Source: Cheilinus undulatus (Eukaryota; Chordata; Actinopteri; Labriformes; Labridae). Taken from it: DNA of 64,000 nt. The translations under genes and the position numbers were made by a program. The stretch lies in NCBI RefSeq assembly GCF_018320785.1, contig NC_054873.1, forward strand, positions 25,014,196-25,078,195, in the 5' to 3' direction. Positions 23,923-54,313 of the stretch are shown here, one piece after another. How positions within the stretch are numbered: the stretch's first letter is position 1; each line of letters opens with the position of its first letter. The notes below the pieces were generated by a model. It worked only from the letters and a program-made list of their open reading frames with translations. It made no database searches and was not told the origin of the DNA.

Positions 23923-23999
23923 ATGTCTAGCAAAAAAACAACAGCTGAGGATGAAGCAGGGACGAAACGCCGTCCAGATACATCTGTATCGCTGGCTGA
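23923..23999 (+). CDS. ttc23: ttc23 coding exon 1
   Basis: Starts with ATG in context CCAATGT and encodes about 25 residues beginning MSSKKTTAEDEAG, a hydrophilic, poorly conserved N-terminus. It ends in phase 2 at a GTAAGT donor (24000). An alternative more upstream ATG was not seen in this frame. Confidence 0.8.
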
Positions 24000-26900
24000 G
24001 TAAGTAATATTTTATAACGTTTTATGTAACGTTAGCCAGTGAATGCCCATTGTAGCTGTTCATCGAGTTGTTCCTAAAAAGGGGAAAAAAGAAACCTTTT
24101 CGTTTATAAAAAAAACGTATCACAATTTTCTTGTCAGCTCGGTTGTATTTCAAAGTCTGAATGGTTGCAAACTGGTTTGTCAAATGCAGCCTAACTAATA
24201 AATTGCGGTCACCCTGTTTTGTCTGGCTACATTGACAGCAACAACAAGGGTCAGGGTGCATCACCTCCCGGTGATTCAGATATGTTGAGTGCCTCACAAA
24301 CAGGATACACAAAGAGGGAATTTACTATGATGCCACCTGAGGAGAAGCTCAGACACTTTGACAGCCGAGCAAAGAACCATGAATACAAGCAACAGGTGAG
24401 TGTTGTACATGGTGGAAAATTCATATTGCATCCATTGTTTATAGTTCTTAAAATTTACACGTGCATCTAAAAACAGAGAATATCATGAAAACAAGGAAGG
24501 TAAGGCACAAAAGGTCACTGCTGAAAGGGCAGGCTGTTTACATACTACTGTATCAAAGAATAATCATAGAAAGTTGACTAAAAGTAAAAAGTGTTGTAAG
24601 GAAAAGTGCACAAGCAACAGATTTTAGATGAAAGTATCTTTTTTTTATTTCATTTGGGAAATCAAGGTCCTAGAGTCTGGAGGAAGATCAAGCAGGCACA
24701 GAATCTAAGGTGCTTGAGGTACAGTGTGAAGATTTTAGCATCAGTGATGGTTTGAGGTGCCATGTCATCTGCTGCTGTTGGTCCACTGTGCCCTATCAAG
24801 TCCAGAGTCAACACTGTCATTCATCTACTAGTAGATCATCTCTGGGGAAATGTCAAGAAGAAGATGAGAGACACCAGACTCAGTGTTGAGTCCAAAAAAC
24901 TAATAACTTGGTGCATAGATGAGCATAGATTTCCATAAGGTCAATATTTCTGTATTATAAACCCTTTTTTGGACTGATTTGTGATACTCTAGCAGAAATA
25001 GTGGATTTTTTATTTTTATGAGCTGTAAGTTGTAATGTAAAAAAGAAAAAAAAATTTGTAATGACGGATCTGGACGATTGTTGTATTTAATTACATCACA
25101 GTAAAGAAACACATTTTTTCATGATGTTCCATTTTTTGAGATGCACATAAGCTTTGAAAATATTTCCTTAAGACTTTACCATAGCTTCTTGAGATCATGC
25201 CTATTCCTGAGTTTGCTACAAACACTCCTACATCTTTAACATGTAGTTTGATTATCACTGAATACATTAAAATGCATGAATATATTAGCAACAGCCATAC
25301 ATATAGGGGGAAATTAGGTTTCAGATCATCTGTGTGCATATTGATACCTTAACATCTCAGCCACTAGGATCTTGGTGATGCTAACAGTCATTTACTGTAC
25401 CTCCTCAGTTTGATGCTTGCATCCGGGACTTGATGCATTGTGTGGCTCTGACAAGGCTGGTGTATGGAGAGGGACATCTGAAACTAGCCCAGGCTCATGT
25501 TAGACTGGCGAAAGCATACTTCAAATTTAAAGGTAAATTTAAAGATAAGTTTAACTGTACAGCTGCATTTAAAATAAAATCTGAAATAAAACAGACACAT
25601 TTTGCTATGCTTCAGTTAGCTAGTACAACATTGGTTATTTTTAATTTGGAGTTTCCTCTATATATAGGTCTCGTGTCTGAACACTGATTTATAAAATCTA
25701 AATAATGTCTCTTTATTTTTCAGGCTGGGGTCTGCAAGCTCAGGAGCACCTGGCCATTGCCAGAGAGCTTCTTGCTTTCTACACATCCTGTGAGGATGAA
25801 AAGTTTGAGGTTCTTATGTGCCTCCTGAACATACACCTCACACAGGGAGGCACTTCTCTGCTTACAGAAAAATATCCTTGCCTTGTTTGAGCAGTACAAC
25901 ATAAAAACCAGATGGTGCTGGTGAATTAAAAGTATCAACTGTGAAAAAAGTAAAACAGTAAAAAAAACTTAACCTTTCAACTGGTGAAAATAAACTATTT
26001 AAAATTTAAACTACCAGTAACCACACTAGCTAACTAATGCACTGAAACTTTGCTGGCAAAGCTCCTTGAAGGTGTGATTCATCAGGTGCTCTTTTCTGAT
26101 TGGTTGGTAGTTCACTGCACCTGTGCACCAATGAGGCTTCACCAGCAGGCTGCACAGGTGATCATCAGGGTGGAGGATACGGTCACCAGCACTCACTCAC
26201 ACATGCATTCAGCCTCCAGAAAGAGGTCAGTTGCATACACAGGAGATGGAGCACCTTTGGCTGTAACATTTGCATAAAAACTTAAATATGAATAGCAATT
26301 TGGAAAACATTCTTAAAAAGTCCTTAACTCTTTTACTCTAGTGGAGGCAGAATCCTCCTTTCTGGATGCAGAACACATTCTTGAGAAACTTCATCAACTT
26401 TGTGACATCAACCAGGAAGAGAAGAAAAACAGTGAGCTGGAAATCTGCAATGGTCTATTCAGGTGAAGTGACAAACTATTTCTATGTGTATTTAAACCAG
26501 AAAAAAGCAGCAATATGATATATATACAAAATTAGAGGCTGTTGTGCAGAATTTGTGGCCAGTATGATGTCAAAGCAGGTGCTACTTGTGTTTAGCAGTG
26601 CTGTCGGGTAATCAGATGATTTGTGCTATTTATTTCCTATGACTCTTATGGTATCATGTTCAAGCAGAGCCATATAACTTGGTGCTTTCCAAATGATATT
26701 TTAACAGGTTACGTTTTTCCATGGCACATTTGGAGTATAGCCTGGATGGTGTAATATGTACATTGGTTTTTAATATACATTCATAGTTGTTTCATTTCTT
26801 GAAACATTGAAGATTCAAATACAGTACTTTCCTTTTATGTTTGGCCACAAGATGGTGATATGTCACTGCCTGTTTTTATAAATAACCCCTCTAGGTTGTT

Positions 26901-29900
26901 TTGGAGTGGAACTGGTTTGCTGACTGCTCAACAACATAATTGAATGAGCTCACAAATAACTTGACAAATCAGGGTTTTCCCATTTGCTGTCCAGGCCACT
27001 CAGCAATCAGTGTGGGTGTTTTTTATGGATGCTTGCAGTCCAGCTAGGTGTGGTCTTTATACTCAGTCGCTGATCAAGCAAAGGGAACAGTATGAGGAGG
27101 AGCATTTTGTCTCTTTTTAGTAGTATATCTCACTCTCTCTTTTTAGTTTAAACTTCAACCCCCTCACTTCATCTTTCATATTTTCTGTTATATGTGGTAA
27201 TAGTTTCAGAAAGCTTTTCATTTCTCTATTAGGTGATTACTCCACACTGATTATTATAGTGTTATTGATTTGAGTCTAAAATTTTACAACATGCATTTGT
27301 AACCTGATAGTGTTATTGACAGCAGACGCCATCAGGGCGGCACTACATGTTAAGAAAAGATTAGAGACACAGTGAATCAGACATCAAGTGCAGGAAAGAT
27401 TGATATGTATTGAATCTACTGAGGGAACTGTGTGGCCTACAGCATAAATTACTTACTAGCCATTTTCACTGGTAAGTTAATGTGATTGACATAGGAGGCA
27501 GAACAGAAAGCAAACAGAAAGTTAAGTGTATCATAACCTGGATTACCACTGACCAATACATTAAATTATTAATATTCTGTTGTTAATCTTTAGGGGCAAA
27601 CATTGAAAATTACCATTAGTTATAAATGTGGTGCAGTGCATTGGAAATTTGTTGTTCAATTCTTTATGTGTACTGAATCTGTCTATGCTAAATGAACCAA
27701 TAGATACAGTGTCTATGAAAAGTATTCACCCCCTTGGAATTTTTACCCTTTTATTGATTTTATAAATCAGTCATGGTCTATATATTTAGACTTTTTGATG
27801 TAGAAATCATTACAAAATTTAAAAAAAACAATATGTAAAGTAAATTAAGTGATTGCATGACCTAATTCAGCAGAGGTCCAGCCAGTTGGTGCTTGTACTC
27901 TCACTATTAGTGAAACGGGGATCACCTGAGTACAGTGAATGTTTATCAAGTGGTTGTAGTTTAAAAACACTTGTGTCTAAAGGGTTAGTGACTGATAAAT
28001 GAGTATTCATGACTACCATTACACCATGAATACAAAAGAACACTCCAAGCAACTGAAAGGAAAGATTATTGAGAAGTAGAAGTCAGGGGATGTATGCAAA
28101 AAAAAAAAAAAGAAATTCCAAGGCACTGAAAGAATATGGCACATGTGTAAATCTGCCTCGATCTGGCCATCTTCACAAACTGATTGACCATGTAAGAGTG
28201 AGACTTGTGAGAGAGGCCACCAAGACACCTATGACTACTCTGAAGGAGTTACAAGCTTCAGCAGATAGGAGAGACTCTGCACACAACTGTTGGCTGGGTT
28301 CTTCACCATTCAGAGCTTTATGGGAGAGTCAGTGGCATGTTTGAAGAAAAGTCATTAAATATCGACTAAATCTCGACCAAAATGGTGCGTTTTGGCCATC
28401 AGACAAGACACTATGTTTAGCGGACACTGTGAAGCAGTGGTGGCAGCATCATGCTGTGGGGATGCTTCTCGGTAGCCAGTCCTGGAAGGCTCTTAAAAGT
28501 AGAGGGTGAAATTAATGAGTCAAAATACAGGAAAATCCTGGACAATCTTACTCAATCTGCAAGAGAGCTACGGCTTGGGAGAAAATTAAATTTCCAGCAA
28601 GACAATGACCCGAAGCATACAGCAAAAGCTGCACAGAAATTGTTTTAAAGACCACAACGTTAATGTTCTGGAGTCACTGAGTCACAGCTCAAACCTCAAT
28701 ATAAAAGAGAATTTGTGGCAGGACTTGAGCTTATGCCCAATCCCCATGTAACCTGACATAGTTTGAAAAGTGGTGAAGTATAAATGCTGACTTGAAGGAG
28801 GTGAATATTTATGCAGTCACTTATCTTCCATTACATATTTTTCTGATATTGATATTACTTTATTGAAAACTTTTTACTTTAAAATTTATTAAAAAGTTTT
28901 TGTGTTTTTTTTTTTTGGTAAAAAAAAAAAAACACAAATCATATTGACTGTGATTGTTATATAAAATCAGTAAAAGGGTTATAACTTCAAAGAGGGTGAA
29001 TACTTTTTACAGGCACTTTACTTCCTAACTTTACTCAAGATTTAGTCAAATGCAGCTTAAACAACCCAGTACACTCCTTATGAATAGTCTTTCGTATAAG
29101 AGAAGGGAGTAACATGTTCAGACTTACAGCTAAACATATAGGTAGACATTGTTAAAGGGACATATTATGCAAAAATCACTTTTTCAGGTTTTTCTAACAC
29201 AAATATGTGCCCCTGGCCTGTCCACAACCCCCTCAAGTACCAGAAAAATCCATTCCCTTCCACCTCCTCTTTCTCCACCTTTCAGAAAATGTGTGCTAAA
29301 ACAATCCATTTTCAGATTTTACCCTCATGACCTCACATGGGGAGTAAGCACCTGCCCCCAAGTTTGAGTGGCCCTCCCCACGACTGATCTTCCTGCAGCT
29401 GCAATGCTGGATAGCTCAGTGGGTTACCCTGCTGACTTTGGTCTGGGCTGACTGACTCTGATTCTGACTGATGGTTCAAATCCCAGTCAGGTCCCAAACT
29501 TTGGATAAAAGTGTCTGTAACATTGTAACATCAGGAGTGCCATGACCATTTCCTGAGAGGGGTGTGGTCAGGGGCAGGGTCAGATAGCTAATTACCATTT
29601 AAAGGCACAGATATAGAAACGGCTCATTCTGAGAAGGGCTGAAACAGAGGGGTTTTCAAACATGAAAAATCCTATATTAGATTGTTTTTTCAGCATCAAA
29701 CTTCACAGGTGTGTTTTGGGGACCTCTGAGAGCAATATAAGCTTGTCTTAAAAGGGTAAAATATGTCCCCTTTAAAGGGTGAGTGTTTATACAGGTTCTC
29801 TCATTTAAAAGACATGATTAAGAGTTTAATTCTTCACTTTGTATGGAGGACCCCATGTTTTAGGATCTTGTTGCTAGGTAGAGGTCTAAAACTCCTGCAG

Positions 29901-32900
29901 CATTTACAGTAAACAAGCCATTACAGCAGCCAAGGTGAGCTACAATCACAGGAATTTGAAAATGATGCCATCTTGGTTTGTTTCAAAGAGTCAGAATTTG
30001 TTGACATGATGTGTGTAATTGAAAAAATGTGCAGACTCTGGCTGGTGTGTAAGCTTGCTTAATCTCTTTTGTTAGGTGGTGACTAAGAATTTGGCATGCC
30101 TCTAAAGCTCTGTCAGTCAACAGGGTTGTGATGAGGGGGAATGTTCCCACCACAGCCTGGAGTGAAAAAGTCAGCTCAGCTCTCTAATAGATCCTGATCT
30201 GAGTAATCTGCAGGGTTTTAGATCAATTCTCAAGGTGTGTACTTGCAGTAGTTCAGCCAGATGAGGAATTTAATTCAAGGAAGAGTAAGTAATAGTTATA
30301 AATTAGTTTTATATGTGTGTGGTGTCACGTTTTTAGTTTTGGCCATGAATGCTTACATAACTTACTCATTCTCTTTGATTTAGGTTTGAAACATTTTCTC
30401 ATACGATCTCCACTCTTAACTCAGTTATCCTTTTCATGAAAACATTCATCTATCCACTATCTATACAACTTATTCTATTTGGGTGTGTTGGGGGGTTACA
30501 CCCAAGACAGTCGCCAGTCAATGGCAGGGCTAGCATAAAAAGACAAGCAAGCAGTCACACTTACATTTTCCCCTGATTGACTTAATAGGGCTGGGTATTT
30601 CCCATAGCCTTGCAATATGATATGTATCACGATGCAATACACACATAGGATATGATATAAAATAAACTTTCTCTGCTGTTTTTTTTTTTTTATCTGAAGT
30701 TGCAGCCTTAGTTCAAGTGACATTTTTTAGAATAGTCTACAAAAATCTTGCTTTCTTAATTTTTGTGAGTTTTTCTTATCATATGAGAATTACATAAAAA
30801 TCATGATTCCCTTCAATGCATCAATTCATATCCAATTTGCAATACAAGTGAAAATCATGACAATAACATTTTTTTCACAATTGTTTAACCCTTTTAATGT
30901 AGTATTGTTTTGGTTATAGCATAGAATGATTTATTACTTGGGTTTGTTGGAAAATAGGTACGATGAGGAACTTAAAAAATAATCGCATATCAAATCGCAT
31001 TCGCAATATTGGGGAAAGAAATTGCAATTAGATTATTTTCTCAAATAGTTCAGCCCTAGTATGTAGCCAACATAGCTACATAGATAAACTAGAAAAGCAC
31101 TCAGAGAGCACAGACTTCTGCCATTAGCCCTATCTCCCAATAGTACAGAATCCTTTAAAAAATTTCTGGATCCAGACGGTGATCCGGATCACTCCCAAAA
31201 TCTAATCAGTTCTTCCTTAAGCCATTTGTGACATTTCCTGAAAATTTCATCAAAATCTGTCCATAACTTTTTGAGTTATGTTGCTAACAAACAAACAAAC
31301 AATCCCTGCTGATCACATAAACTCCTTGGCAGAGGTAAAAAGCTAAAGCTAAGCTCACAAAGCAGCTATGTAAGCTATATAGGCATTCTATCTATGTAGC
31401 AACATTAGCTTTAGCTACATTTGCTAAAGTTCACATTGTTAAAGCTAACATAGCTATAGATAATGTAGCTTATGTAGTGTGTAGCTAGCATAGCATAGGT
31501 TTAGCTTACAAAGTAGCTATGTAAGCTACATATACATGTTATCTATGTATACCATTAGCTTTAGCTACTTTTGCTGAAGCTCACATAGCTAAAGCTTACA
31601 TAGCTACATTGCTTATGTAATAATGTTAATTACATAGCTAGCTCAACTATGTTAGATTTAGTTTAACTTAATGAACCTAAAGCAAGCCATTATTGGTGTG
31701 ACTGGTTCTTAAAGAGGTCTATACATAATTGAGTCCCTGATTAGACCTCTAACATTTTTCTCTGTTTTATTTACAAAATGTTGCTTGGTGCTTAATGTTT
31801 GCTGTGCTATTTCATAATTGTAACTGTCAGACTTTGTTATGGATAACTTAATTTTAAAAAAACAGAACTGGAAATATGTTGTACCAGCAAATTACAGCAC
31901 TTCCTTTCTGAGATATACTGTCTCCAATGAACAGTCAGTGAGAGTGGCTGTCAGAGATGTACAGCCTGCAGCCAGTCACCTCTCACATTTGTGGTCAGAT
32001 AGCTTCTGTATCATCACTATCAATGTATGTATAGGCAGTGAGTACATAACCATATACTGCCATATAGATTAATAGACAGAACAGGTTATAACCTAATGAG
32101 CATGTCTTTCAACAGTGGGAAATGTCAAAGTACCAAGAGAGGACTAGGAACTTTCTTGCTAACCACTGCAGCTATTCACACAACTTATAAAATGTGAAAC
32201 TGTGTGAAGTAGCTAACAGAGTTTGTGAAGTTGCCATGTTCCCCTGTCCTTATTCCCAGGCGGATACACAGGATTGCTAATGTGCAGTAAATAACAGTGT
32301 TCTATTCATGCTTGAGGTCCAGAGTTTTGTTTATTTTTACCCGTCTTTTTCACTATTTCATGTGTTTGATCAGTTGTCTGAAATTAAACCAGCAGCCTCA
32401 GACTGAAAAGATATTTTTCTCCATAAAATTTCACCCAAATTTAGCCAAGGCAAACAATAAACATTCTCATGAGTCAAACTGCTGTCAGTTGAAGCACTGT
32501 AAATATTTGCAGTAAGCGGCTTTGTTTTTCTTATCCATCTAATTACCGTAGCTTGGCTTTTTGATGTCATTCTCTGAGTAATAGCAAAGAGTAAACCTAC
32601 GTAAACCATGTTCTGGAAACATTTACAATAGAGGACTGTGTGGCTTGCTTGGCAACTCATCTACAAATCCTCAATTATATAAAATTCCCCACTCTTCGGT
32701 CTCTTGGTAGATTGCAGTGGGCTGATGCATATTACAGTCCTGGGCAGGATGTGTGTAAGGATGTGGAGTGAATGAGAGGATAGAGGGGTATTGTATCTGT
32801 GTGTCCATGCAGGCAGGCTGGCAGGACTCAAGCAATACTGGAATGTAGCTCTGCTTCAACCATGGCTGCTGCCCTAAAAGGACTTAAAGAGCCTTCCCTG

Positions 32901-35900
32901 TGAAAACTAATGGGTGGGGCTCTCAATCTTCCATCATCGTGTTGGGATCATTTTTGATTCATGGGAGAATACAGTTAAAGGTGACATGTTACCATTTTAA
33001 GACAAGTTTATATTGTTCTCAGAGGTCCCCAAAACATGCCTGTGAAGTTTATTGCTGAAAAAACACTCCAGTTTTGGATTTTTGTATGTCTAAAAACTCC
33101 TCCGTTTCAGCCCTTCTCAGAAAGAGCTGTTTCTGTATCTGTGGCTTTAAATGGTAATTAGTTGTCTGACTCAGCCCCTGACCACACCCCTCACAGAAAA
33201 TGGATGCAGCACTTGTGATATTACAGACACTTTTTTCCCCCAAAGTTTAGACTGGGATTTGAACGATCAATCTTCTAGACTGTAGTCAGCAGGGTAACCC
33301 ACAGAGCTATCCAGCATCTCAGCTGGTAGCTGAGAGGATCAGTAGAGGAGGGTGGAACTTTCCTCCAAGTGGGGGAGGGCCAACCAACTCTGGGGGCAGG
33401 TGCTAAGGGCCCCTGGTGAGGTCACTAGATGTTAAATCTGAGAACTGCTTGTTTCAGCACAAATTTTCTGAAAGATGGAGAAAGAGATGGATTTTTCTGG
33501 TACTTGAGGGGATTGTGGACAGGCCAGGGACACATATTTGTGTTAGAAAAGCCTGAAAAAGTGATTTTTGCATAATATGTCCCCTTTAATTGATCAATCA
33601 CAATGTTTTAATCACCTGTGCTGCTTGCTTTAAGCACATAGCAATGAATATTCTGATTTATGTAGTCCAAAGAATGTTAGCACAATGCTGTAAACTTACG
33701 CTTGAATATATTTGATTTACTCATAATACCAAAACAAGCTTGCAATAAAACATAAATTGTAAGACATGCGCAGTGTTTTGGAGGCACAGTTTTCCTGTGA
33801 TGTTGTGAAACAGTGTTGTAGCTACAGACAGAGTATTAGTGAGTGTTGTGTCCTCTGAGAAAGGCCGCCCCTTCAACTGGAGAGTGAAATTAAATTTAGA
33901 GTCCATTAGGTGGTTGGAAACTGTTAGCAGAGAAGGCTGATGGATTCAGTGTCCTTGCAGGGGTTAATGCAGATATTGTCTTCAGCTCTCTCTCCCCACT
34001 CTCCTTTGATTGCTCTGTAAAAACCCAGGCATACCATAGTACAGTAGAATAAGAAATGATTGTTTTTTATTGTGAATATTAGGTCCTTGGTAGTACAGAC
34101 TGATGGCATATTGTATCTCTAAATTCTCACATATTACATTGAGAGTTTGAACACACTACCAGGGTTACTTATCAGAGTGTGGGATGCCATTGAAAGTCAG
34201 AGACTTAAAAGCAGCATAACTTTCAGAGGAGACAGCCAAGAGAAACATGAGAGAATGCAACAAAAACAGTTAAAGGGCAACATGCAAGTTTTCCCTATTA
34301 TAGCCTGCTCTGCACAAGGTTGCTGCTGCAGCAATCATCCAAAAAGCCCTTTACCGCTCTGCTGGGTCTGCATTGGCTGGAGACCAAACAGTTTCTTGGT
34401 GATGTAAAAAAAAAACTAATTTTAATGAAGTGATTGGCCTTTAGTTATTTATTGTACCAAAATACTGCTAAACAAATAATTTATTATGGTTGTTACAGTT
34501 GTTTATAATCAGTATCATAAAGAAATATAAACATTTTTGCAGATAAATATTTATTAAGAAATAATTTGTCACAGCTGTTTCTAGATGGCTCAATCATGTG
34601 GAAGACTTGGAGATCAGCTGCCTGGGTGTAGGTGGCCCAGCGGGCACAGCCCATGTATAGCAGACAGAGCAGGTCTGAATCCAACCTGTTGCTCTTTTAT
34701 AAAGTGTCATTCCCCAATTTCTCTCTTTCAGTATCCACTCTTCTGTCCACTCCAAATCTAGGAAAAAAAGAATAATGATCTTAATCTTTGTGTTCTCCTA
34801 GGGTTAAAAATGCCTTGCCCTATTCTTAATGTGCATGATTTTGTTTTGCATCTATTATTTTGAGGGCTGTCAAACAATATACTTTCAATTGTGTCTAACA
34901 TCAAAATTATTGTAGTTAACCATGATTAATGTCCCCTTTTTTGACAAATTTTGAAATTCTATTTGCATTCAAAACTTTTTTGTAAAATGTGTTGATTTAT
35001 GTACTGTCTTAAACTATGGGTAATTGGCTTCCTGTTTTGACACAGACCTGCCTTTATTTTGAAAGAAAATAAGGAACTAAGAAATAGACCCCAAAGGCTA
35101 TTGGTGTAATAACGTTATTATTATCATTGATGATGATAATAATAATAATAATAATAATAGTGTAATAGCATATTAACCATACGCACTCTTCTGTCAATAT
35201 TTTTAAATCAATTCAATACAGTTGCCTTTATTGGCGTGGAAAACATTAGTTTCATTGTCAAAGCAATGTACAAATTTAAAATATTATTTAAAGAAAAAAG
35301 TATTATAATTGGCATAAAAAATCTGGCTTTAACTTTGAAATTTTAGTTAAAAGGTCTAGAAATAATATAATCCTTTTTTTTAAATTGTGCAGACAGTCAT
35401 CTTCAGGTTGCTGAGGTGTCCAAGGTTTTCCTTTGGTCACAACAGCTCACATGATGTGCTGCAACGTTTTGCACACTGTTGCACTTCACCCAACAGATAT
35501 GGAAGCTCTTGTTCATTTTTTCATTCATAAATTCTTTTTGTTTGCTGGTGAAAAGTGGAAAGAATTTGACTCTGATGCCCTTGTTTAAAAGACAGGTGGT
35601 TTAAAAGTGCAGCTCAGTTTCTACCCTCTGTTGGCTGCAGTGGGTGCACAGTCTGTCTTCTTTAGGGATCCAGCTTTGTCCTTGCATCGTCTTTCAATAG
35701 CAAGGTTCTGCTCTCTGAGTCTGTACATAGTCAGACATTTCCTCAGCTGTGTATCAGTCACAGTGCTTAAGTATTCTACAACTGCATATTTCCTATTAAG
35801 GGACAAATAGCATTCAAGTTTGGTTTGGTTTTTGGTCAATTCTCACCAGTCAGTTGGATAGTTTTTTGTTTGTTTGTTTTTAATAATTTGGTTTAAGCTG

Positions 35901-38900
35901 GTTAGATTTGTGTCTGAGGACTCTCCAGGTGAGCAAAGTCTTTACCGACTGTCTGAGGAGGTAGATAGAAATAGGTTATTGTATTACAGTACACTAAACT
36001 GGAGTGCAGAGCACTTAATCACAAGTTAGTATTGTCCCTCTGCACTTACAGGTAGTGATGACAGTTTAACTGCCTCTGTTTTCCTTTTCTACTTCTTTTT
36101 TAACAGTAGTCATAAACAGATGTTAGGTGATTACAGTTGCAATTCTAGAGCTATTTTCAGTCACTTTTTTTCATGAAACTTTTATTTTATGTCAGCATTA
36201 TTCGCTCTACGAAAATTAATTTATTTTGCCTTATATGCCTTTTTCTTGGTTGCAATATGCTAGTGTTGTTAATAACACGATAGCTAATGGATGCTAATGT
36301 TGGCTAGCGCTATTATGCAGTACGATATCCGCTATGTCACAAATATGGCATTCATTGAAGGCACAAGGTATTTTGAGTGTGCCAGTACACTGTCCTGGTA
36401 CAGTGCCGGGAAAAAGTAGTCGCCCCCTTTCTGATTCCGGATTTTTTTGCATATTTATCACACTTAAATATTTCGGATCATCAAACTAATTTTAATATTT
36501 CACAAAGACAACCCAAGTGAATAGAAAATGAATGATTATTATTTATTTATTTATTATTATTTTTTATTTTTTAAGGTGGGGGGAATCCAAATCTATCTGG
36601 CCCTGTGTGAAAAAATAAGTGCCACGTCACTGTATACTGCTTGTAGGGATACTTCACAATGTAAAAGCCCTTTGTTCCCATGTATGTACTCAAAATATGT
36701 AGTATTCAGTACAGGGGTATGTGATTTGGGACACACTATATGACATAAACTTAGTAGTTGTGTGATGAGATCAAAACATCACGAGATGTCTCGTTGAGGG
36801 GAAATCATCTCTTGAGATCAATATTGCCAAGACATCAGGAGCAGCAGCTCTTTGACAGAAAACAATACCTAAATGGAAGTTATAAAACATCATAAAGATG
36901 CCCTGGACACTTTGAAATTGTTGGTTTGCCAGCTAATGAAGAAACAGAACTGATCCGCGACCCATTCAGATCATGCTCCATCCCCTACCCCCTCCTCCAC
37001 GTGCGCTACTCGGGGCTGCACATGATCCATCTATGCATAGTAAGTTCATCAAAACAGTCTGAAATGGTTAAATGCTTCTTCTGGAAACCTGTGCAGTTTC
37101 CGTGGGGTCGTGTATGCGCACAGACTCGCTCATAGTGCTGGTATCTGTGACTTTGTGACTTTGAATTAGTATTTGCTTCTTCATGTCTCCTTCTCTTCTC
37201 ACCGTCTGTCAGTCACTCATCCATCAGCTGTTAACTGTTGTGTATCAACATTCAGAAGCTAAACATGAGTAGCACAACGGGCCGTTGCATACTGCAGCAG
37301 TAAACTTAGCAAAACAAACTCTGTCTGAACGCCATAGAGTCCACTGTTAGTTCCAAAAGCAAAGTTCAAGTTCCAGTTAAATGCGCCATGTTTGTTAGTC
37401 TGACAGCAGACTGAGCAGACACACACTCGCTCACCAATGCACACACATTAATACACACGCTCATCTTTGCGTTGTGTCCAACACTGTCAAAGCTCTTATC
37501 AGAAAAAAAGACCACAGTAGTATAAAATAAGCTATTTCTCTAAATTACTGTAAAAAACGAACAAATGTGTTATTTACAATGATTTTCTTCTAAGTGTTTT
37601 AAATAAGGATGTCCTTAAAGAGGATGAGAAATAGTTTGATTTTACTGATGCAGCCCTTTATATTTCAGTCTGTTGTAAATAGTTTTTGAATTACTTTCAA
37701 ATTAATCTAAATGCTATCACCATTATTATAATTGAAGCAATGGTGCATAGTGTAGTAAAATAAATATGTGGTAGAATATTAAAATGAAAGGTCTGATTTG
37801 AAGGGCATTAAAATGTACAGTTTGAGTCAGAGTTAGACAAGACAAACTGTGTGTAAGCATTGATAGCCTGTTCAGTCCAAGAGGAGTTAGTTTAAATATT
37901 TCTGAATAGACCTAAATGCTTCGCAGTTATGACTTTCAGCTGTATAAAGGACATATTTGCCACTCATATATTTATTTCCAAACTAAAAAAAATGTAAACT
38001 CTCGTCTCGTCTCATGTCTTGTGGGCCCAAATCTCGTCTTGTCTCGTGAGATAAGCGTCTCGTCACACCCCTAGAACTTAGCCATGGGAAAAAGGAACTT
38101 GCCATTGATTATGAAGGAAATAGGGGAACAATAAAAAGTAAAATGTTAGTGCAGATGACTTTCTACTTGTCCATAGATCCATAGATGTGAGTTTTTTTTT
38201 AAAGTGAAATAAGACATTAGGGTGCAGTTTTGTATTAATTGTACATCATTGTGGCTGCTCGGAGACCTTGCAGTGGCTTGATCATGGTTTGCTGAAAGTG
38301 ACACAAAAAGCATGCAATTAGTGTGATTTAAAACTTTTTTTGCACCAAATATGGCCCTTAATTGCATTTCAGTTAATGCATTGATGTTGATGCTGACGGT
38401 ATAGTTGTCTATAGAAAATGTTAGCATAATTGAAAAAAAAAATAGGAGGAAACAGACTGAATGAGACTAATTTCTACCTTCTTCATGCAAAATGTAAAGA
38501 AGTAAAGAATTCTTTCCATGCCATGTGCCATTCGAATGTCATGGTTTTATTGTTTTTCTGCAGAACACTTAAGCAGGGCAGTTTTAAAAGAGAGATGCAG
38601 ACATGCTGCTGGAAGGCATCCAGTTTAATCATTAGTGTCTTAAGTACTGTCCTAATGGGGTCACTGAATCTATGTTATTCTTTCTATTTCTGATAGTCTC
38701 TTCATATATGTGCCTCTCTGCTCTATAGGGTCTATAGGAGACAGGCCAGACCAGAGGAGGCCTTTAGCCAGTGTGAGAAGTCTCTGCAGTTGCTGAAGGA
38801 CTGGGGTAAGCCAGAGAAGATGTGCTTTGTCTACAGGGACATGGCTGCCATCGAACAAGACAGAGGTCATCTGAATCAAGCCATAGAGCATCTCACCAAG

Positions 38901-41900
38901 GCAAGAGGATATACATCAACAAACATGACTCTTAAGCATAACATTTATAAACATGAGAGGGTTTTTTTGACTCAGTGCCATGCTCACCTCTTATTTGGTG
39001 AAATGTGATCTATCTTATTTCACGTGGGGGTTTCTGTTAGGCTCATGCCATTGCGATGAGTCACAACTCAGAGGAGCTTGAAGGGGCTCAGATCTCCCAC
39101 AGCCTGGCCCTCATCCTTTCTGCTGCAGCAGAGCCACATCACAATGGTGAGTTTATTCACAGACACAGGCTGAGCCTGAGCAACACGGTGAGGGGGCTAA
39201 TTAGGATTTGAATCAGCTATTGTCTGTCTATATGTGGAAATCTTTAATACCGCATCATAAAAACAAGAGCACATAATGGCCTTATTGAAAAAGAATTCAA
39301 GTATAGACATGTCTTTGTTCTGTAATGTAAGCTTTTTGTGCCACATGGCAACCAAGCATGTAAACAAAACATATGGAAACTATAATGTAGGAATTCTAGA
39401 AGAAACTATGACTTTGCATTGGCACTGGACTATATTTTCTTTTTTTCTCTCAATTATTGCCAAAATGATAGATAAGATGCATTTTTTTTTTGTTTTCTCC
39501 ATGCTATTGTAGATGCTGCTGTTCAGTACTTTGAGCAGAGTTTAAGTGCATACAAAAACTCTGCAGGTCCACAGGATCCAGCTTTTCTAGCTGTTCAGGA
39601 CGATTTCTGTCGCTTCCTTCTATTCAATGGCCAGCAAGAGGTTAATGGTGACGCATGCATGCACCATACACATACAGCTATACACAGGCTCATTTAATTT
39701 TGAGACCCATAATACATTTCATTTTCCACATGTTGTTTTTAGAGCATCACCAAGGAAACAGTTTGTATTTATTAAGGATTCTTTCCCTGCCTGCTAGACG
39801 TGGTGGAATAAATCCACCTTTTTCACCTTTCTTTCGCAGAGATGTGCAGAGATACAGAGGGCTTCCCTCCCATCAAAGAGATACACGTTTGGTGACCTGA
39901 GTGCGGAGGTAGCAGAAACCTTTCAGCTGATTGGAAGTTTGGAAATGACAGAGGGCAGAATGAAGCAGGCCCACAGCACCATGACAAAGGTGATCACACA
40001 TTTCAGATCACAGCTAATGTTTATCACGGTGACAACCTTTAGATACACATTTAGGAATGCTGGACAGAGTTAAAGGAAATGTCATCCCACATGACATTGA
40101 ACCTGCCAAACTATTTGAAGGGCTTTAATAAAAGGCCAGCAGTGAGTGGGTGCGTCCATCTGCACCAGTGAGAGGCTTGTTCAAAATATACACACAAAGA
40201 GCCCCTGTCATTCTCAGATGAGCTATTTCCACCATCCTCACTAAAGCTGGATGCTATCAGAGGCAAATGCTAATCTTGGAGGGGTTGCAGTGTGCACAGG
40301 CACTATCCCTGGTGTAAAATATCACACAGAGTGACTTTGTGCCTCCTCAGTCTGGACGGAGCCTGACAGATGGGCAGCGCAACTCTGGAAAGAGAAAGGC
40401 AGTTTGCTAACTGCTGTCACTTAAGAGGGCACTGATCCCAATTAGTGTGGCATGCCATTATGTCCTCGGCAACAGAATCTGAAATCCCATGTCTCTGCAC
40501 ACATGCTTTAAATAAAATATCCTTTTTAGATGATTTAATGAAGCTCCTCCTTAAGAGCTGTTTTCAATTTAGTTTTACGTAACTTGTGTTTTTGTTTTCA
40601 CTACCACAATGACGGCATATCTTCATCTATGACCTCAGTTCTGCCGACTACTAAACACAAAAATACACTTCCAAAGAGGGGTTTCTTCATACTAGTATTA
40701 ACATGTCTGTAAGTAAAGGAGCACAGTTGCTATGTTGGTTTGTTTTGGCATGCAAGTGTCTAAGGGGTTTCAAGTCCCCCTCTTACACTGATGGGTACAT
40801 CCAGGCTCTCGCTAGTAACCTTTCGGAAGTTCCCTGACACAGACCAGATATGTCAGCTCATTTCTTCCCTGTCATCATGACACCTTTTCACCCTAAGTGA
40901 CTTTTATTTTTCCAGAGGAAGACAAGCTCATACGGTACCTACAGTGCATAAGATCCACCACATAAACACAGAGAACAATAGTACCCACACACGTTGACTT
41001 ACACTTGACATTACCCTTTCCTCTGTAGTGAAAAAGCCCTTCCATTACATCAACCTTAGCAACAGTGAAAACATCTGAGAGGCCAGATGGATCTGCTCCA
41101 GATTACGGAGTGTTTTACTTTCCCTGATGAAGAAGGGAACTTTTTCTTCCTTTTTTCCCTGCTTCAACAAAGTTCTCTTTACGTGTTGTTAGGAGGATTG
41201 CCAAAAAGGCAGAAAAGCTCGGTAGGTTTTATGTCATGTTTGTGGCTTAGATTTTTCTATTGTATTAAAAAAAAATTTAAAAAGGAAAAATTACTTAACA
41301 CAGAGCCACACCGTCAGAGCTCTTTTCTCTTATTTGATTGGTTCAAACTAAAAGTAGAGTGGAAAAATGACTCAGGCTTCTTCCTAAATGTGTTGACTTG
41401 CCACAGATCCCAGGTTGTTGATCAGGACTCCTTGTTGTAAACGTAGCACAGCCCCCTTTTTGACCTGACACACGAGTGGTCAGCACAGGTGTTATGTAAA
41501 CCTTGGAGAGCAACAGTGGTTATTTTGGGATGTTTAGTGCTTTCACATGTTGCTAGGAAGTATTTTTTTCATCTCTGAGTATGAGTTGCGCCTATCATCT
41601 TCCACTGACCACTCACACTGCTGTCTTTATTTTTGTTTTATTATAGTGCCTGGAGATCCAGAGTTTGTTATTCAGTCCTCAGCACAAGAAGACAAAAGCC
41701 ACACAAAAAGCTGTGGATATGCTGGCCCGGTAAATCTGTAAAAAATTCACTTACATTAATAAAACTGCACTCATTAAATCCAATTTAATATTGTGCTCAA
41801 ACAGTTATTGTATTGCAGATGAATTAGTAATGTAATCTTTTTCTAATAGTGACAGAATAGTGAAAAAGTAAGATGCTTTATTTATTTGGCCATGTACTGT

Positions 41901-45754: not shown

Positions 45755-47697
45755 CTAATCATCTGTCGGACCTTCAAGGTAAAGTGTTGCAACTCTTTTC
45801 TCTTGGGAAATCTTCACTGGGGTTTCGATGATTTGAGAATCCAGCCCAGAGGTTCCTTCTTCAAACTCTTTCCCATACGTCGCATCCTCTTCTGTGGACA
45901 CTCTGATGCTGTATCCTCCTGCCCCGCCTTGCAAGACTTTCTCAAGCCCAAGGTTAGAAGATCTGAGAGTTGCCAAGATCTGCTCTTCAGAGAGATCGTC
46001 TCCCGCTTCCAGCAGCCCGGAGTCCTCTAGGGTCTGAGAGACATTCAGCTCTGCAACAATAGTTGTGGTGCCATTGCCACTAGACTGTTGCACTTTCTTG
46101 ATTGCCACGTTTTCTGGACTCTCACTGCTGACTTTTGTGAGGAATGCCAACTCCTCCCTCAGTGGACCTGACACTGATTCTTGTAGCTTCTCAAGAGCTC
46201 CCTTCAGCTGCTCTTTGGGCTCCAAAGACTCCTCTCTGAGGAACTCAAGCACTGACGTCTGGACTATCGGAGAGACACGTACCTCTTCTTCAATGACGCA
46301 GTCTGGGAAACTCTCTTTGATATACGAGTCATCACCTAACTTCAACTTATGTTTGTCACTTCGCTCTACAATCACTCTCTTTGGGGGAAGGTCTTCATCT
46401 TGATAGTACCTCTCATCTGACAGGTCGTCTACAAGACCGTAATGGCCATATGATGTAATGCCAAGACCATCCTCAGACTCAGAGAGATTTTCATCGGGTG
46501 TGGAGACAAAGTACTCGTCTGGCTCCCTGTCATGAGAAAAATATTCACTCTCTTTGGAAACCTCTTGAACTCTGATGGATCCCCTCTTCCACTGATCAGT
46601 ATCTGTTTCTGATTCTTTCGATGTATCCCTGCCACTTCTCTGAAATTGAGCTTCCTGGGGGACATTTTCTAGCTCCTCAATTTGGAAATATGTAGCAGAT
46701 GGGTCATAAAAAGTAGAAGTAGACTTCTGTTCAGTCTCAAACTCCTCAGCACTGTAAGTCTCCACTGGTTCCTCGATGATTTCTACATTGACAGACTTAT
46801 TCTGCAGGTCCTCGCCTCCCTGCAGGCCACTTAGCAGGTTCTTGATCATGCTTCCTGTAGCAGTGTCCTTGATGTCCTCCAGTGACACTTTCTTAACCCC
46901 CTGGCTCAGAAGTTCGTCCAGGGCTGCATCTTCTGAAACGTCAAGCTCTTCTTCCACCTTAGACTCTAGAACAATCTGCGTCTTCATTGTGCCATCCTCC
47001 TGTTCAGTTTTTTCCACGTGATACTTCACCTTTGACTCTCCTGATGAGCACACCTTAGCTTCCAAACCTGCAGGTTTTATCACTTTCTCTATTATCTCCT
47101 CTACAGTCACAGAGTCTAACATCTTTTTCTCACTTGGGCCTAGTGAGGCCTCTGTTTTCTCCCTGTCTTTGAACACCTCTCCATCAAAATCATCTTTCTC
47201 TTTTTTATCAGACACTTGCTTCTTGCTTTCAGTCTCTGTTTTCTTGCTAATGGCCATCATTGGCGGAGACACCACTCTTGTTGATTTGGTCTCAGTAGTG
47301 AAGGATTTGATAGGACTGCCTTGGTTCTCTACCTGTGAGACCTGTTTGATCGTCGCTGTTTTCTCATCTACTCTTGTTTTCTGTACATTTTGGCTGGGTA
47401 GGCTTTCACGCTGGACTGTTTGATTATCTTTGGCAGCAGTGATGGTGCTGGTGGATGTAGGAGTAGCAGCAGAAGCCCGGGCTTTGGTGAATGAGATCAT
47501 GTCCCTTCTGGATGCGGGACTCTGGTGCCGATCTCGGCTTGCAACTGAGATTGGAATTACTCTTGAGGGACTCATGGATCCAGAGGGACGCATGGGGGTT
47601 CTTCTCAGGCTGGAAGCTGGCGGTGTGTACTTGACTTGTTGCCTGGATGTTAAAGTGGAAGCTCTTGGAGTGTAGGGCTGGGCAGGCACTTTGATAT
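45755..47697 (-). CDS. synm: synm coding exon 4: tail domain
   Basis: Begins after TCTGCCTTAG with DIKVPAQPYTPRASTLTSR and runs 646 codons to EGPTDD and TAG. The early part is Ser/Thr/Arg-rich (TPPASSLRRTPMRPSGS). The middle is acidic, with VEEIIEKVIKPAGLEAKV and LDELLSQGVKKVSLEDIKD, which have the look of conserved helical segments. The rest is rich in Glu, Asp and Ser with many potential phosphorylation sites (for example STPDENLSESEDG). No Cys/His metal motif or membrane segment is seen. The open frame continues upstream past the acceptor but that part is intronic. Confidence 0.94.
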
Positions 47698-50600
47698 CTA
47701 AGGCAGACGATAAATAAGATTGAATAGTTAGACAGTTGAAAGGAAATGCTCTTACTTGCTTTCTTGGCAGAATGTGGATAAAAAAGTTGAAGCTGAGCTT
47801 CACAAGAATACTGCAAACACCAGCAGAGCATAAGCTGCCAAAAAGTTCCTTTTCAATTCTTCTAATTGGCTCAGTTTATTTTCTTCAGTTTGAGCAAAAA
47901 CCTGCAAGTAAAAACCTAAAGTTGTAGCTTTAGAGGATATTGTGTGGAATTGATTCCTTGCAGGTAAGAGTAACTGTTTTGAGAAGCAAGAAGTCAGAGG
48001 AACATGTGAAGCACATAACCCCAGGTTTTTGTTCTTGCACTCGGTTTTCACAGCAGTGCCAGCTTAAAAGAAGACAGATGATTATACTTCTCACACCTTG
48101 AAACTATTCCTCAAAACAAATCTGAAAATGTGCACTTGTTATCAACATGTAACAATCAATGTTATAGTAGTTTTAGATTTATCATTAGTTTTAATTTTCA
48201 TTTTATTCTGACATTTTTGTTTTCAATTCTAGTTTCATTTTTTATTTGTTTTTACTGTGGCAATTAATGTTAACATGTCAACATTAATGATTAATCTGAA
48301 AACCTTAACGTATTAAAAAATAACCCAAATTGGATATATGACTAACTATGACTAACAGGACTTCCCCTAAGCTAACTAATGCAATCACTAAATGGGTTGC
48401 CAAAGACTGCAGACCCATTAACATCTTTGAAGACGAGGGGCTTCAAGGCAAGCCTTTTACATTCACTTTGCAGCAGAGTTATTTTGTACCTGATGTGTTT
48501 TTCTTATAATTAAGTTCGCAGATTATGGAAATTATTGCTAAGCTAATTAAGATATTGTAATTTACAAACCTCTACTGAGCTGAGATGTTAAAAGTTCAAA
48601 AACTGTAGTTCACCATAGTACTTATTTAATCTCAAACCAAAAAACAGGTAAATGGTAGTACTTTAGATGTATTGATTAGGCAATTGATCTTGCAAAAACA
48701 TATGTCCTGTTACAATAATAAAAAAGTAATTTATGTATGAAAATTTTTAAGAAATATTTGGGAAGTTGTAAGACCTCAATGAAAAAGAAGAAAATAAATC
48801 ACAAGAATGGTCACTTTTTAATTTAACGTTGATTCTTCAGTGCAGAAATGCTACAAATTATGTCTTAAACTAAAATGATTTTTAAATTTATTTTACATTA
48901 TTTTGTTAGTTTTAATTAACTATAATAAACTTGGTAACAATAAGTGTTTTTAGAATACCTATTATTCTTTCTCCTTGACGTTGGGTCACCCTTCTGTGAG
49001 GCTCTTGAAGATTTAGCCTCTCCCCTTCCAGAAGAGCCCTGAACAAACAAGAAACAAGACAAAATACAGTTCATTATCAGAGCTAATTGGCAGTGATTAT
49101 TCTCCCCATATATAGAAATAGCAGAAAAGAATACCTCACAAGACGGTGTACTTCATCCAGCTCTGCCATCTCCACTCTCTCAAACTAAATGCAACAGGCT
49201 TACAACCCAGTATGAATACAGGACCTGGCCTTATAAGGTGGTAAATATGAAAACAAAACTAGCCACTGTTACTTAATAAAAGCCTTGTAATAATTAGCTT
49301 AAAGAGCTCACCTCTTCTTGGCCATGTTCCAACAAGCAAACAACCGCAAACTAAAGTGTCTCAGAGGGAACAACCTCTCAGGAGAGTGACTTCCCAAAGT
49401 CTGACCTAAAAATAACAGCCACGGTGCGAGGCTGTGCACGCTTCCCTTTCAGTCCCACAGCAAAAGCTGGCTCGTGACACACGTAAAAACACGTCACTGC
49501 TACGTCTCTGACCAAACATTCAGTCTATTCTGAAAATTCAAAACAAACCAGATGTGCTTGGAGGCAGTTTCCCATATAGAGACACATGCAGAGGAGACTG
49601 TCTCTGAGGGAAATTCATGGGAACTGGGTTGGCAAAAAGAATAAAACGAAAAAAATGTGCTATCCCTGAACAGCTTCAACTGCGGAAACACAGCCTTCCT
49701 GTGATATGGGATAACTGGCTGTATAATTGTAATGATGAGTGAAGACAGTTTGATATTAAACCTTCAAACATAAGATTACATTATGCTTGTTGAAGCTTTA
49801 AAAACAACCTTCCCTATGAGTTAAAATAGTCTCTTAGTATGTGACCTTGTGTGAATCTAGCTATGTTTGGAGCATGAGAAACAACACACTAACATACTGT
49901 TCTTTTACGTGAAACAAGTGCTAGATGTAATTTGTCTGTCTCAATAAACACTCAAAATAAACCATGAAGAGGTTAAAAACTTATATTGGAGTGGTATGCA
50001 CATGACAGCAGGACGCAGCAGCTCGTGTGTTTAAGGAAATCACTTATTAAGACTAATTAAGCTTAGAGTAAATTCAGTCAGTGGGGGGTGGTTTAACCAG
50101 TAATCTGACGACCTCTGTTTTTTCTCTGCTGATACTGCAAAGTACTTACTTAACAAAGCAGTGCAAAAATACACAAAATGGTCCAATTTAGGATTGGTTT
50201 AAGAAACTTACACTTTATGAACCATGTAACTACTAACCTCCCTTGCCAAAGCAGATATTAGTGGTACAAAACCATGCTTCTGAACACAAAGCAACACTTT
50301 CTTCAAGGCCTATTCACTGAGGACATTTTAACAGGTCAGAGCAGGAAAAGCACAGGTGCAATGAATAAAATATATGCTCTGAATTATATTTAGTTGCTCC
50401 AGTGGTGAAGGAATGTTGCTCAAGCAGAAGTTCATGCAGGAATCCTATATTCTGCATGCTGGTTTCGTGTTCATTCTTACACATGGAACTCATCCATGCA
50501 ACACAGCTATCAGCTGTCCACATCATCTGGTCATATCTACTCAAAAGCACTGCTCCACTCCCTCTTTGACAGCCTATCAAACCAAACTTTTCAGACATGT

Positions 50601-53600
50601 CAGGTAAAGGAAAGCCCCTGTCCATGGAAGTGGTTAAAAGCACATATTGTTGCACACAGTCCAGCACACTCTTGTCTAAAACAAAAAAGTCTAAAACAAA
50701 TAATATTATTTTCCATGGAAATTTTCATGAAAGAAAAGCACGAGAGAACACAAGCAGCACTAAGTGGACATGCTTGATTCAATAAGGTGAGACTTGTGTG
50801 TCTGTATGTATCCTTGAAGAGCAGCAGACCCCTACATTGTTGCTGGCCAACTACGCTTATAGGCATGGTTGGTAACACTGAGAAACTAGCAAGATTTTGA
50901 AAGTTGAATTTCCTTAGATCTCTGTTTAAGCCCATTCTCTGACAGCAGGGCACTATCAAAGCCCCACCCCAACAAGCACAAGCACCCCTGCTTCACAGTT
51001 GCCCCAGAAATGAACCTCAGCACATCACTTTCTCACAGCTACATCACCTAACAAAGTGGCTTTTGTTACTACTAACAAATGTCAGTGCTATAGTGTATTA
51101 GTATGATCCGCATCCAAGGTAGTGTGTTCTACATAAAGTTCATGTGAAAACAGGAAGGGAGAGAGTTGATTTGCTGTTTCCACGAGAACTTCACAGCAGT
51201 GACTGGCCATAGTTTTCACAGTCTTACAACTACAAGAGATGGTGGCACTTTTTTTATTCCTTTTAATGAATGTACATTTGTAAGGGGTGCATGTATTAAA
51301 GTTTTGCCAACATCTAATATGTCAGTGTTTACAAAATAATTTTAGCCAATACCAATATGGGTACCAATATTTAAATGTAGTTAAAATCTAAAACTTAAGT
51401 CCTTAATACACACAATGTAAAATTTAAGGATGAACAAATTTCAGTCCTAAAACACACTTAAAAGTGTAAGGACTGATGATGAATAAATAAAACAGACTTC
51501 AGCTGAACTAGGTCTGTTGGTCCAGCCTAAAACTCCACTAACCTATTTATTCATACGGCCAATATTTACTACTGATATTGGCAGATTTTGGCCAAATATC
51601 GTCTGTAAATATTTGCATAATTCTCTTTAAGCTAATATCTGCTGATACCATTGTCATGATAATAATATCATGGATCCCTAATGATTGAGGTTCAGACTCA
51701 AAGACAGTTTCCACCATGATATCAAGGTGTGTCTTGGATAATATTACCAGCCCTGCCTTTGAGGATTTTTTTTTCTTTAATTTCAGCCTGAATCTTACTC
51801 AATGCCTAGGATTTTGTATTTTAAATTAGAATGATTTTACAATAATGGGTAAAATATACCATTCAAAATCAGTTAAAAATGTTATGGGTTTTTTTTTGAC
51901 AGTATTTCACAACCACCGAGAGGTCCCAATTTCCAATTTGGAAACTCTTGGCATATCATATTGCCACTGTCTTTTTTTCCAAATATGGCTTTCTTCTCCA
52001 CCAATGGGACCCTCCATGTCACCATCACCACCAGATTCATCACTTTCTTCATCCCATTAGTATGAGACATCTTCAGCCATCATCTGGTCAGCTTCAGTCC
52101 CAGCAGTTTGATCAGCTTTTTATTTCAGCAGTCTCAGATGACATCATCAGCTAGCACCTTCCCCACTGGCTGATTGGTTCCAACTCCACAGTGTTTGGAC
52201 TCCACAGGGGGACACATCTTACTACCCTTTGACCCTCCATGCCCCTATAGAGTCCAACGACTCTCTGACAATTATTCAATATCACATCTATGTCAAAGTG
52301 TCTTGGATTCATTTACTAGTCTCTCTTGAATGAACTGGTGCTGTGTGTGCTTACTCTCTGTTGCACTGTTTTTGGCTTACAGGAAGATTTACTTAAAAAA
52401 GAGATTAATGCTATTAGTGAGCGTGTTTTCTGCAAGAGTCCCTTCTACTAAAAAGTCTAAAGAAAAAAAAAATTATCACCTGTAGGCAGCCACCTCCATG
52501 CCCAGATCCATCTTAACCTGCAGAAGGTGCTGATGTTCTTTCATCTTTTCTTCAATAGCATTTGCCATCATGTTCCTCTCATGCTCCAGCTGATCAATTA
52601 TCATCTGGGGGGTAAATAAAGTACAAAAACATTATGTTTTTCATCACACAAGTTTTATTAGTCTATGATCAGTCTGTTGGGTTCTATTATTATTTCAGCC
52701 ATTCCTGCAATGCAATACAGTATTCTGCAATCATTCTGGACAATTAAGCCTCCAAACTGTGTAACCATATTTTATGTATGTGTAGCCCACAACTTTGATA
52801 AGTCAGTACTTTGTTTTTGTTTGGGGTCAGCTCCTCTTATTTCTGTTGGCTCTGAATAAAGGTAGAAAGTAAAACCCACTGTACACTCTACTTTTTGTGA
52901 CCTGTCTGAACCCACGAGCAGACTATTGATCAATTTGACCGCTCAGTTAAGTCTACTTCATCATATCATGCCCAACAGTATGTCTTAACAGAATGCTACA
53001 ATGTTTGAGGCCTCTTTGCAGCCTGTAGTCATCTGTTACTGCCCGGCCTGCTTAGGGCTCCATCTTTAGGAGGCTAAGAGGGATTTGTCAGTCTGACAGC
53101 TAATTGGTTTAAGTGGCTGGTGTAATCTAGGAGCTATAAAGCCTTAAAAGGAAAGTCGAATGTCATTTAGACTGTCAACTAATCAATCCTTTTATACTGA
53201 GGTCGATGCACGCAAGATCCCATGTTTTACAGTTAGAACAGAAGAAAAGAGTGGCAGATAACTATTTGTATAATATTTTTCAGAGTTTGATTAACATGCA
53301 AGAGGCACAGACAGCTGCATCAGCCCCTTTAAGGACAGTGGGTGTGGCAGGTACAAGAGGGAGTAGCCTCTCCCCTCTTTCATGCCTCAGAGAGAGACAG
53401 CAGATTGTTCTGTCTGCAAAGGTGATAACATAATTCTTGTATGATATATTTTAGGAGTTCACAGAATTAAAATACAATTAAGTGCTTTCTTACTTCTATT
53501 TTCAGAATGAGCCTTCCTCACCTGGTATTCACTGCAGTCCACTCTGAATTTTTCCTGAATGTTCATCAGCTGTTCCTCTAGTCGCAGCTGAATGTGGCCT

Positions 53601-54313
53601 TGCTTTTCTGCTTCTCTGTGTAGCTTGTCCATCTCTGACACATACAGCATCTTCTCCCTCTGCATATCTCTCAGCCTCTCCTGGTCCGCTTTAATCGACT
53701 GCTCCATCTCCTCCACCTTCCTCTGGTACATTTCAAAAGTCTCCATCCAGCCCTCGGACAGACCCTGGGCGTACTGCTGAACCTCCTCCATGGAGGCCGC
53801 GGGAGGCCCGCGGTAGGTCTGCGTGATGATGGGCACCACCCGGGAGTCCACCTGACGCTGCAGACGGACCATTTCTTGCCTGTGCGCGTCCTCTAAGCGT
53901 TTATACTCGGTCTCTAAGCGAGCCAAACGCTGCTGGAGTTCAGTGTTGACCTTGTGAGCCTGGTGAAGCTCTATCCCGCAGCCTTTCAGCTCTCCACTGA
54001 TGTCCCTGCATACCTCCGTCTGCTCGTTACACAGAGACTGGACCATCTGTAACTCCCGCCATAGCTTCTCCCTCTCCATCTCCGCCTGGGACTTCTCAAA
54101 CGACAGCTGCCCCACCATTCTCCTAAGCTCACGCATCTCCTCCTTGTACTTCGGCTCCGCCGTCTTCACCTGTCTGAGTTTGTTTATTTCAGCTATGAGA
54201 TGCGCATTTTCTTGCTCCAACTGCTTCGTCCTGGAGAGATACTGAGCAAGTCTGCCGTTGAGCTGCTGCAGCTGCTGTTTCTCGCTGTCAAAAGTTCTCT
54301 TGAAAGGCAACAT
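45755..54313 (-). CDS. synm: Synemin, intermediate filament linker (4 coding exons, 979 aa)
   Basis: Coding exons on the minus strand are 54313-53522, 52604-52480, 49038-48959 and 47697-45755, giving 2940 nt in one frame. The head is very short (MLPFKRTFDSEKQQ), typical of synemin. Coil 1A opens with LQQLNGRLAQYLSRTKQLEQ, and the coil 2 end motif reads VAAYR|ALLEGE, split by intron 2. A ~660-residue acidic, disordered tail follows. Synemin joins desmin or vimentin filaments but cannot form filaments alone. It ties them to alpha-actinin, vinculin and the dystrophin/utrophin complex at muscle Z-lines and costameres. The fish protein is shorter than human alpha-synemin (about 1565 aa) because the tail is shorter. 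The chosen start matches the family's ML... opening; an in-frame ATG 17 codons upstream (54364) could add a short extension. It is head to head with pgpep1l, 1.5 kb away. Confidence 0.94.
48959..49038 (-). CDS. synm: synm coding exon 3: helix-termination motif
   Basis: Begins after TTGTTCAG and encodes (R)ALLEGERLNLQEPHRRVTQ and RQGERII, ending in phase 1 before a weak GTATTC donor. It completes the YR-ALLEGE motif with exon 2. It is also the exon that a candidate internal first exon could join. Confidence 0.88.
49312..49325 (-). CDS. Candidate alternative first exon of synm (rodless isoform)
   Basis: Within synm intron 2 the minus strand reads GGAACATGGCCAAGAAGAG|GTGAGC: an ATG in strong Kozak context (A at -3, G at +4), four codons (MAKK) and a strong donor in phase 2. 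This is the phase exon 3 needs, so splicing would give MAKK-R-ALLEGE and a 678-aa protein of tail without rod. A MEF2 site lies about 85 bp upstream. This is inference from sequence only; no transcript is known to me. Confidence 0.4.
49406..49415 (-). promoter_or_regulatory. MEF2-type A/T site in synm intron 2
   Basis: CTAAAAATAA on the plus strand (TTATTTTTAG on minus) fits the MEF2 consensus YTAWWWWTAR. It stands 81-90 bp upstream of the candidate internal synm start, and could serve as a muscle element or as a TATA-like box for it. Confidence 0.5.
51284..51682. mobile_element. MITE with ATATTGGC/AATATCTGC motifs in synm intron 2
   Basis: Left AAGGGGTGCATG and right CATGGATCCCTAATG are roughly inverted. 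The interior has repeated GCCAATA..., GATATTGGCAGATTTTGGCC and GCTAATATCTGCTGATACC. Related fragments lie at 7.37-7.55 and 19.73-19.82 kb. Confidence 0.5.
52480..52604 (-). CDS. synm: synm coding exon 2: end of coil 2
   Basis: Begins after TTTACCCCCCAG with MIIDQLEHERNMMANAIEEK and ends LGMEVAAY(R) in phase 2 before GTGATA. The last residues begin the helix-termination motif of intermediate filaments. Confidence 0.93.
53522..54313 (-). CDS. synm: synm coding exon 1: head, coil 1 and most of coil 2
   Basis: 264 codons, phase 0, with a GTGAGG donor. It holds the short head, the helix-initiation motif near residues 14-33 and long heptad-patterned coiled coil to VDCSEYQ. Putting most of the rod in a first exon is typical of the neurofilament-like (type IV) gene structure. 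Confidence 0.95.

Follow-up and report, generated by a model that had tools for sequence, protein, structure and literature searches.

A predicted U12-type AT-AC intron in the ttc23 gene of Cheilinus undulatus, probably orthologous to the minor intron of human TTC23

The ttc23 gene of Cheilinus undulatus contains, with a probability that we put at about 0.95, a U12-type AT-AC intron that is most likely the ortholog of the known minor intron of human TTC23. This is the fourth intron of the gene, which lies in the 64-kb stretch of genomic DNA analyzed here (hereinafter, the window; Table 1). The coding end of exon 4 (...TSLLTE-AA) directly abuts ATATCCTTG, the boundary reading AAA|ATATCCTTG, whereas the intron ends with TCCTTAAC-TCTTTTAC, followed by the exon 5 start TCTAGTGGAGGC. 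The termini are AT and AC, and joining position 25871 to 26337 leaves the frame open and yields the stop-free LLTE-NLVEAESS. We assign the intron to the U12 type because all three signals, namely, the 5′ splice site, the branch site and the terminal AC, meet precisely where an exon junction is needed. As a donor of the major class, position 25872 is not strong (−3.8 bits with an approximate matrix that omits +1 and +2). The intron carries C at +5 and G at +9; at the latter position, it differs from the U12-type consensus, which usually has T. The initial annotation of the window had placed the intron at 25872–26336, with AC at its end and the branch-point core about ten bases before it, and had maintained that the 25871/26337 junction restores the reading frame; the coordinates and letters are correct, the junction behaves as claimed, and the interpretation of the element as a U12-type AT-AC intron of ttc23 is supported by the sequence marks of the intron together with the identity of the gene.

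Table 1 Positions of ttc23, its fourth intron and neighboring splicing signals, numbered from the first nucleotide of the window
Feature	Position	Strand	Remarks
ttc23 coding model	23923..41733	+	10 exons, 424 aa, no internal stop
ttc23 exons 1-5	23923-23999, 24239-24395, 25409-25532, 25724-25871, 26337-26462	+	
ttc23 exons 6-10	38729-38900, 39041-39146, 39513-39640, 39840-39989, 41647-41733	+	
Exon 4	25724..25871	+	
Predicted U12-type AT-AC intron 4	25872..26336	+	465 nt, phase 2
5′ splice site ATATCCTTG	25872..25880	+	RTATCCTT 8/8
Branch site TCCTTAAC	26321..26328	+	8/8 to TCCTTRAY; branch A at 26327
3′ splice site AC	26335..26336	+	9 nt after branch A
Exon 5	26337..26462	+	begins TCTAGTGGAGGC
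First in-frame stop (TGA) if intron 4 were retained	25888..25890	+	
Cryptic GT donor CCT|GTGAGG in exon 4	25790..25791	+	with AG 26341, in-frame product 29 aa shorter
Nearby AG (TTTTACTCTAG)	26340..26341	+	resembles U2-type acceptor; joined to 25871 shifts frame
ttc23 stop codon TAA	41731-41733	+	

The assignment of the gene to ttc23 is supported by the alignment of its conceptual product with most of the length of a provisional human TTC23 sequence (133 of 369 aligned columns identical) and by a probable synm neighbor. Consistently, the protein contains TPR repeats (TPR_12, E value of 1.8e-15). The neighbor is an intermediate-filament gene on the minus strand (45758–54394, with the Pfam Filament domain at 53462–54394) that converges on ttc23 and is probably synm, the neighbor of TTC23 in human. 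By our reading, a 706-aa frame at 45758–47875, for which no Pfam match was obtained, belongs to this gene. The nine introns of ttc23 comprise seven GT-AG, one GC-AG and one AT-AC (intron 4). The GC-AG intron is intron 6 (38901–39040, AAG|GCAAGA...TTAG), so that the gene carries two non-GT-AG introns, each of a different class. When the genome (1.17 Gb in 46 contigs) was searched with the ttc23 protein, at least ten matches were obtained, one per exon and all inside ttc23; no retrocopy or paralog that could show the junction was present among these ten matches at E values up to 1. Searches of the window against Rfam at the gathering thresholds and of PDB at 0.001 returned no matches.

The two motifs of intron 4 stand out within the gene. 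It matches TATCCTT in seven of seven positions at +2 to +8 and the branch motif in eight of eight, and is the sole such intron among the nine; the remaining eight reach at most 4/7 at the donor and 6/8 at the branch site. Both motifs are scarce: the two strands of the window together contain 8 copies of RTATCCTT and 9 of TCCTTRAY. We also scanned approximately 127,000 starts on both strands, requiring that RTATCCTT lie within the first 37 nt and TCCTTRAY within the last 40 nt of a segment of 465 nt. Nine starts qualified, all at 25864–25872 on the plus strand, that is, at intron 4 and nowhere else. If only a spacing of 100–1000 nt on one strand is required, a pair is found in 45 of 300 Markov-simulated windows; the pair at 25872–26336 is significant because it is positioned at a required exon junction. 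For intron 4 alone, we roughly estimate the probability of a chance occurrence at 4e-6. A decoy pair, likely due to chance, is present on the plus strand at 50808 (GTATCCTT) and 51400 (TCCTTAAT), antisense to the filament gene. In the complete genome, the pattern RTATCCTT N20-50 TCCTTAAC, with a spacing too short for intron 4 and hence of little bearing on it, has 33 matches compared to 12 for the reversed control; near-identical pairs of this kind are found on contigs C15 and C22.

To weigh other junctions, we combined donors located at 25754–26329 with acceptors whose last base lies at 26200–26399 and scored the joined products against the provisional human TTC23 sequence. Altogether, 44 pairs preserve the frame, including 14 AT-AC, 12 AT-AG, 12 GC-AG and 6 GT-AG, so that the assertion of the initial annotation that no GT-AG pair does so is incorrect. 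The AT-AC pair 25872–26336 ranks first (178) and the GC-AG pair 25880–26341 second (176), and the respective full-length alignment scores are 610 and 608, a margin too narrow for homology to carry the argument alone. What decides in favor of AT-AC over GC-AG is the strength of the splice sites. Excision of the stretch as a major-class intron, via either GC-AG 25880–26341 or GT-AG 25885–26346, would keep the frame in both cases (full-length scores of 608 and 600, respectively), and the former could rely on the TTTTACTCTAG acceptor at 26341, which by eye has a decent major-class appearance. Nevertheless, we consider this reading very unlikely, given that the donors, CTT|GCCTTG and CTT|GTTTGA, score −9.1 and −6.1 bits (approximate matrix), whereas the donors of the remaining eight introns range from −1.0 to 9.1 bits, and that the perfect U12 motifs would be left unexplained.

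The six frame-keeping GT-AG pairs share three donors, at 25885 (−6.1 bits), 25810 (−3.9) and 25790 (2.8), and each of these alternatives either has a poor donor or loses residues aligned with human TTC23. The best of these donors, that at 25790, falls within the range of the other donors of the gene and, joined in frame to AG 26341, would yield a product shorter by 29 residues. Yet the alignment score drops to 579, against 610 for AT-AC, and the deleted part is aligned with human TTC23; splicing at 25790/26341 is probably a backup rather than the predominant form, and as the principal arrangement it is slightly less probable still than the major-class readings above. A somewhat better, although still unlikely, possibility is a hybrid, twintron-like organization in which the major-class pair 25790/26341 overlaps the U12 pair, so that weak minor splicing would give in-frame TTC23 lacking the 29 residues. 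Such an arrangement would result in a shorter protein rather than a lost one, in contrast to human cells, for which retention of the intron has been reported. Two additional configurations, an AT-AG reading (25872–26341) and skipping of exon 4, were rejected, the former on account of an in-frame stop and the latter because it also yields a stop. The least credible explanation is that the motifs arose by chance in a broken gene copy: pairs do appear somewhere in 45 of the single-strand simulations, but the ten exons, across seven GT-AG, one GC-AG and one AT-AC introns, encode 424 aa without a stop, and the ten matches listed by the genome search fall within ttc23, with no better copy at that sensitivity.

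The splicing of the U12-type AT-AC intron can be envisaged from the observed sequence signals, frame and homology and from a U11 snRNA gene located on contig C16, whose score of 116.6 bits exceeds the gathering score of 39. As judged by eye, the 5′ end of this U11, AAAAAGGGCTTCTG, can form base pairs with the CCUU of the donor and an adjacent U-G wobble. In the predicted course of splicing, U11 would bind the donor by pairing with CCUU, and U12 would bind the branch site by pairing with UCCUUAAC; U4atac/U6atac and U5 would join next, and the intron would be excised at the AC ending at 26336, with exons 4 and 5 predicted to be joined as ...SLLTE + NLVEAESS.... If the intron were retained, translation would proceed through six extra codons (KYPCLV) to a stop, giving a protein of approximately 174 aa instead of 424.

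In its termini, 5′ splice site, branch site and non-0 phase, intron 4 resembles the AT-AC introns of the U12 type described in the IAOD/intronIC (PMC7367187) and MIDB (PMC6717393) resources, and its phase (2) agrees with the tendency of U12 introns to avoid phase 0 (PMC7367187). The 9 nt from the branch A to the last intron base are slightly short of the optimum of 11–13 nt (PMC6717393). According to the IAOD table, 22% of zebrafish and 26% of human U12 introns are of the AT-AC subtype (PMC7367187); thus, such introns are rare among all introns but common among those of the U12 type. The same termini are also found in AT-AC introns of the U2 type, such as intron 21 of SCN4A and those of other sodium channel genes (PMC2831892). 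However, the sodium channel introns have G at +5 (PMC2831892), whereas ttc23 intron 4 has C at this position together with a full U12 branch site.

The human gene has a minor intron in the corresponding region. A 2025 paper (PMC12332006) counts TTC23 among the well-characterized "model" minor introns and reports its retention upon RNPC3 knockdown. The TTC23 RT-PCR primers given there translate to ARQILA and SKELLQC, which align to exons 4 and 5, respectively, and intron 4 is the only intron of our model that lies between these peptides. The gene is the same and the primers are located in peptides flanking intron 4, although the species differs; we infer that the human minor intron occupies the same position and belongs to the same subtype. 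The initial annotation had implied that the intron was new, which does not stand: human TTC23 already being a model minor-intron gene (PMC12332006), intron 4 of the fish gene is real but most likely an ordinary ortholog of a known minor intron. The main texts of three other sources (PMC7367187, PMC6717393 and PMC9501576) make no mention of TTC23. Our literature search found two papers for TTC23 in combination with IQCE and Hedgehog, and no work joining TTC23, cilia and EVC2.

The function of TTC23 is linked to cilia, and intron 4 adds a clear case of a minor intron within a cilia-linked gene. The findings fit the view that the minor intron of TTC23 arose deep in vertebrate history. In addition, the intron could serve as a reporter in fish minor-spliceosome mutants. 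In zebrafish zrsr2 mutants, the median length of retained introns is 451 bp compared to 1398 bp for the non-retained ones (PMC9501576), and with 465 nt, intron 4 is close to the former value, so that retention is a fair prediction. A link between minor splicing and cilia has already been published (PMC13216214). The relevance to Hedgehog signaling and ciliopathies suggested in the initial annotation is plausible as background.

Several minor features of the locus were observed as well. Within intron 5, the region 27700–28500 resembles, by eye, a decayed Tc1-like transposon, and the frame at 28057–28341 in the same intron has no Pfam match. A weak 17-bp tandem repeat (2.2 copies, 25928–25966) is located inside the AT-AC intron, and a 12-bp tandem repeat at 25523–25554 spans the donor of exon 3.
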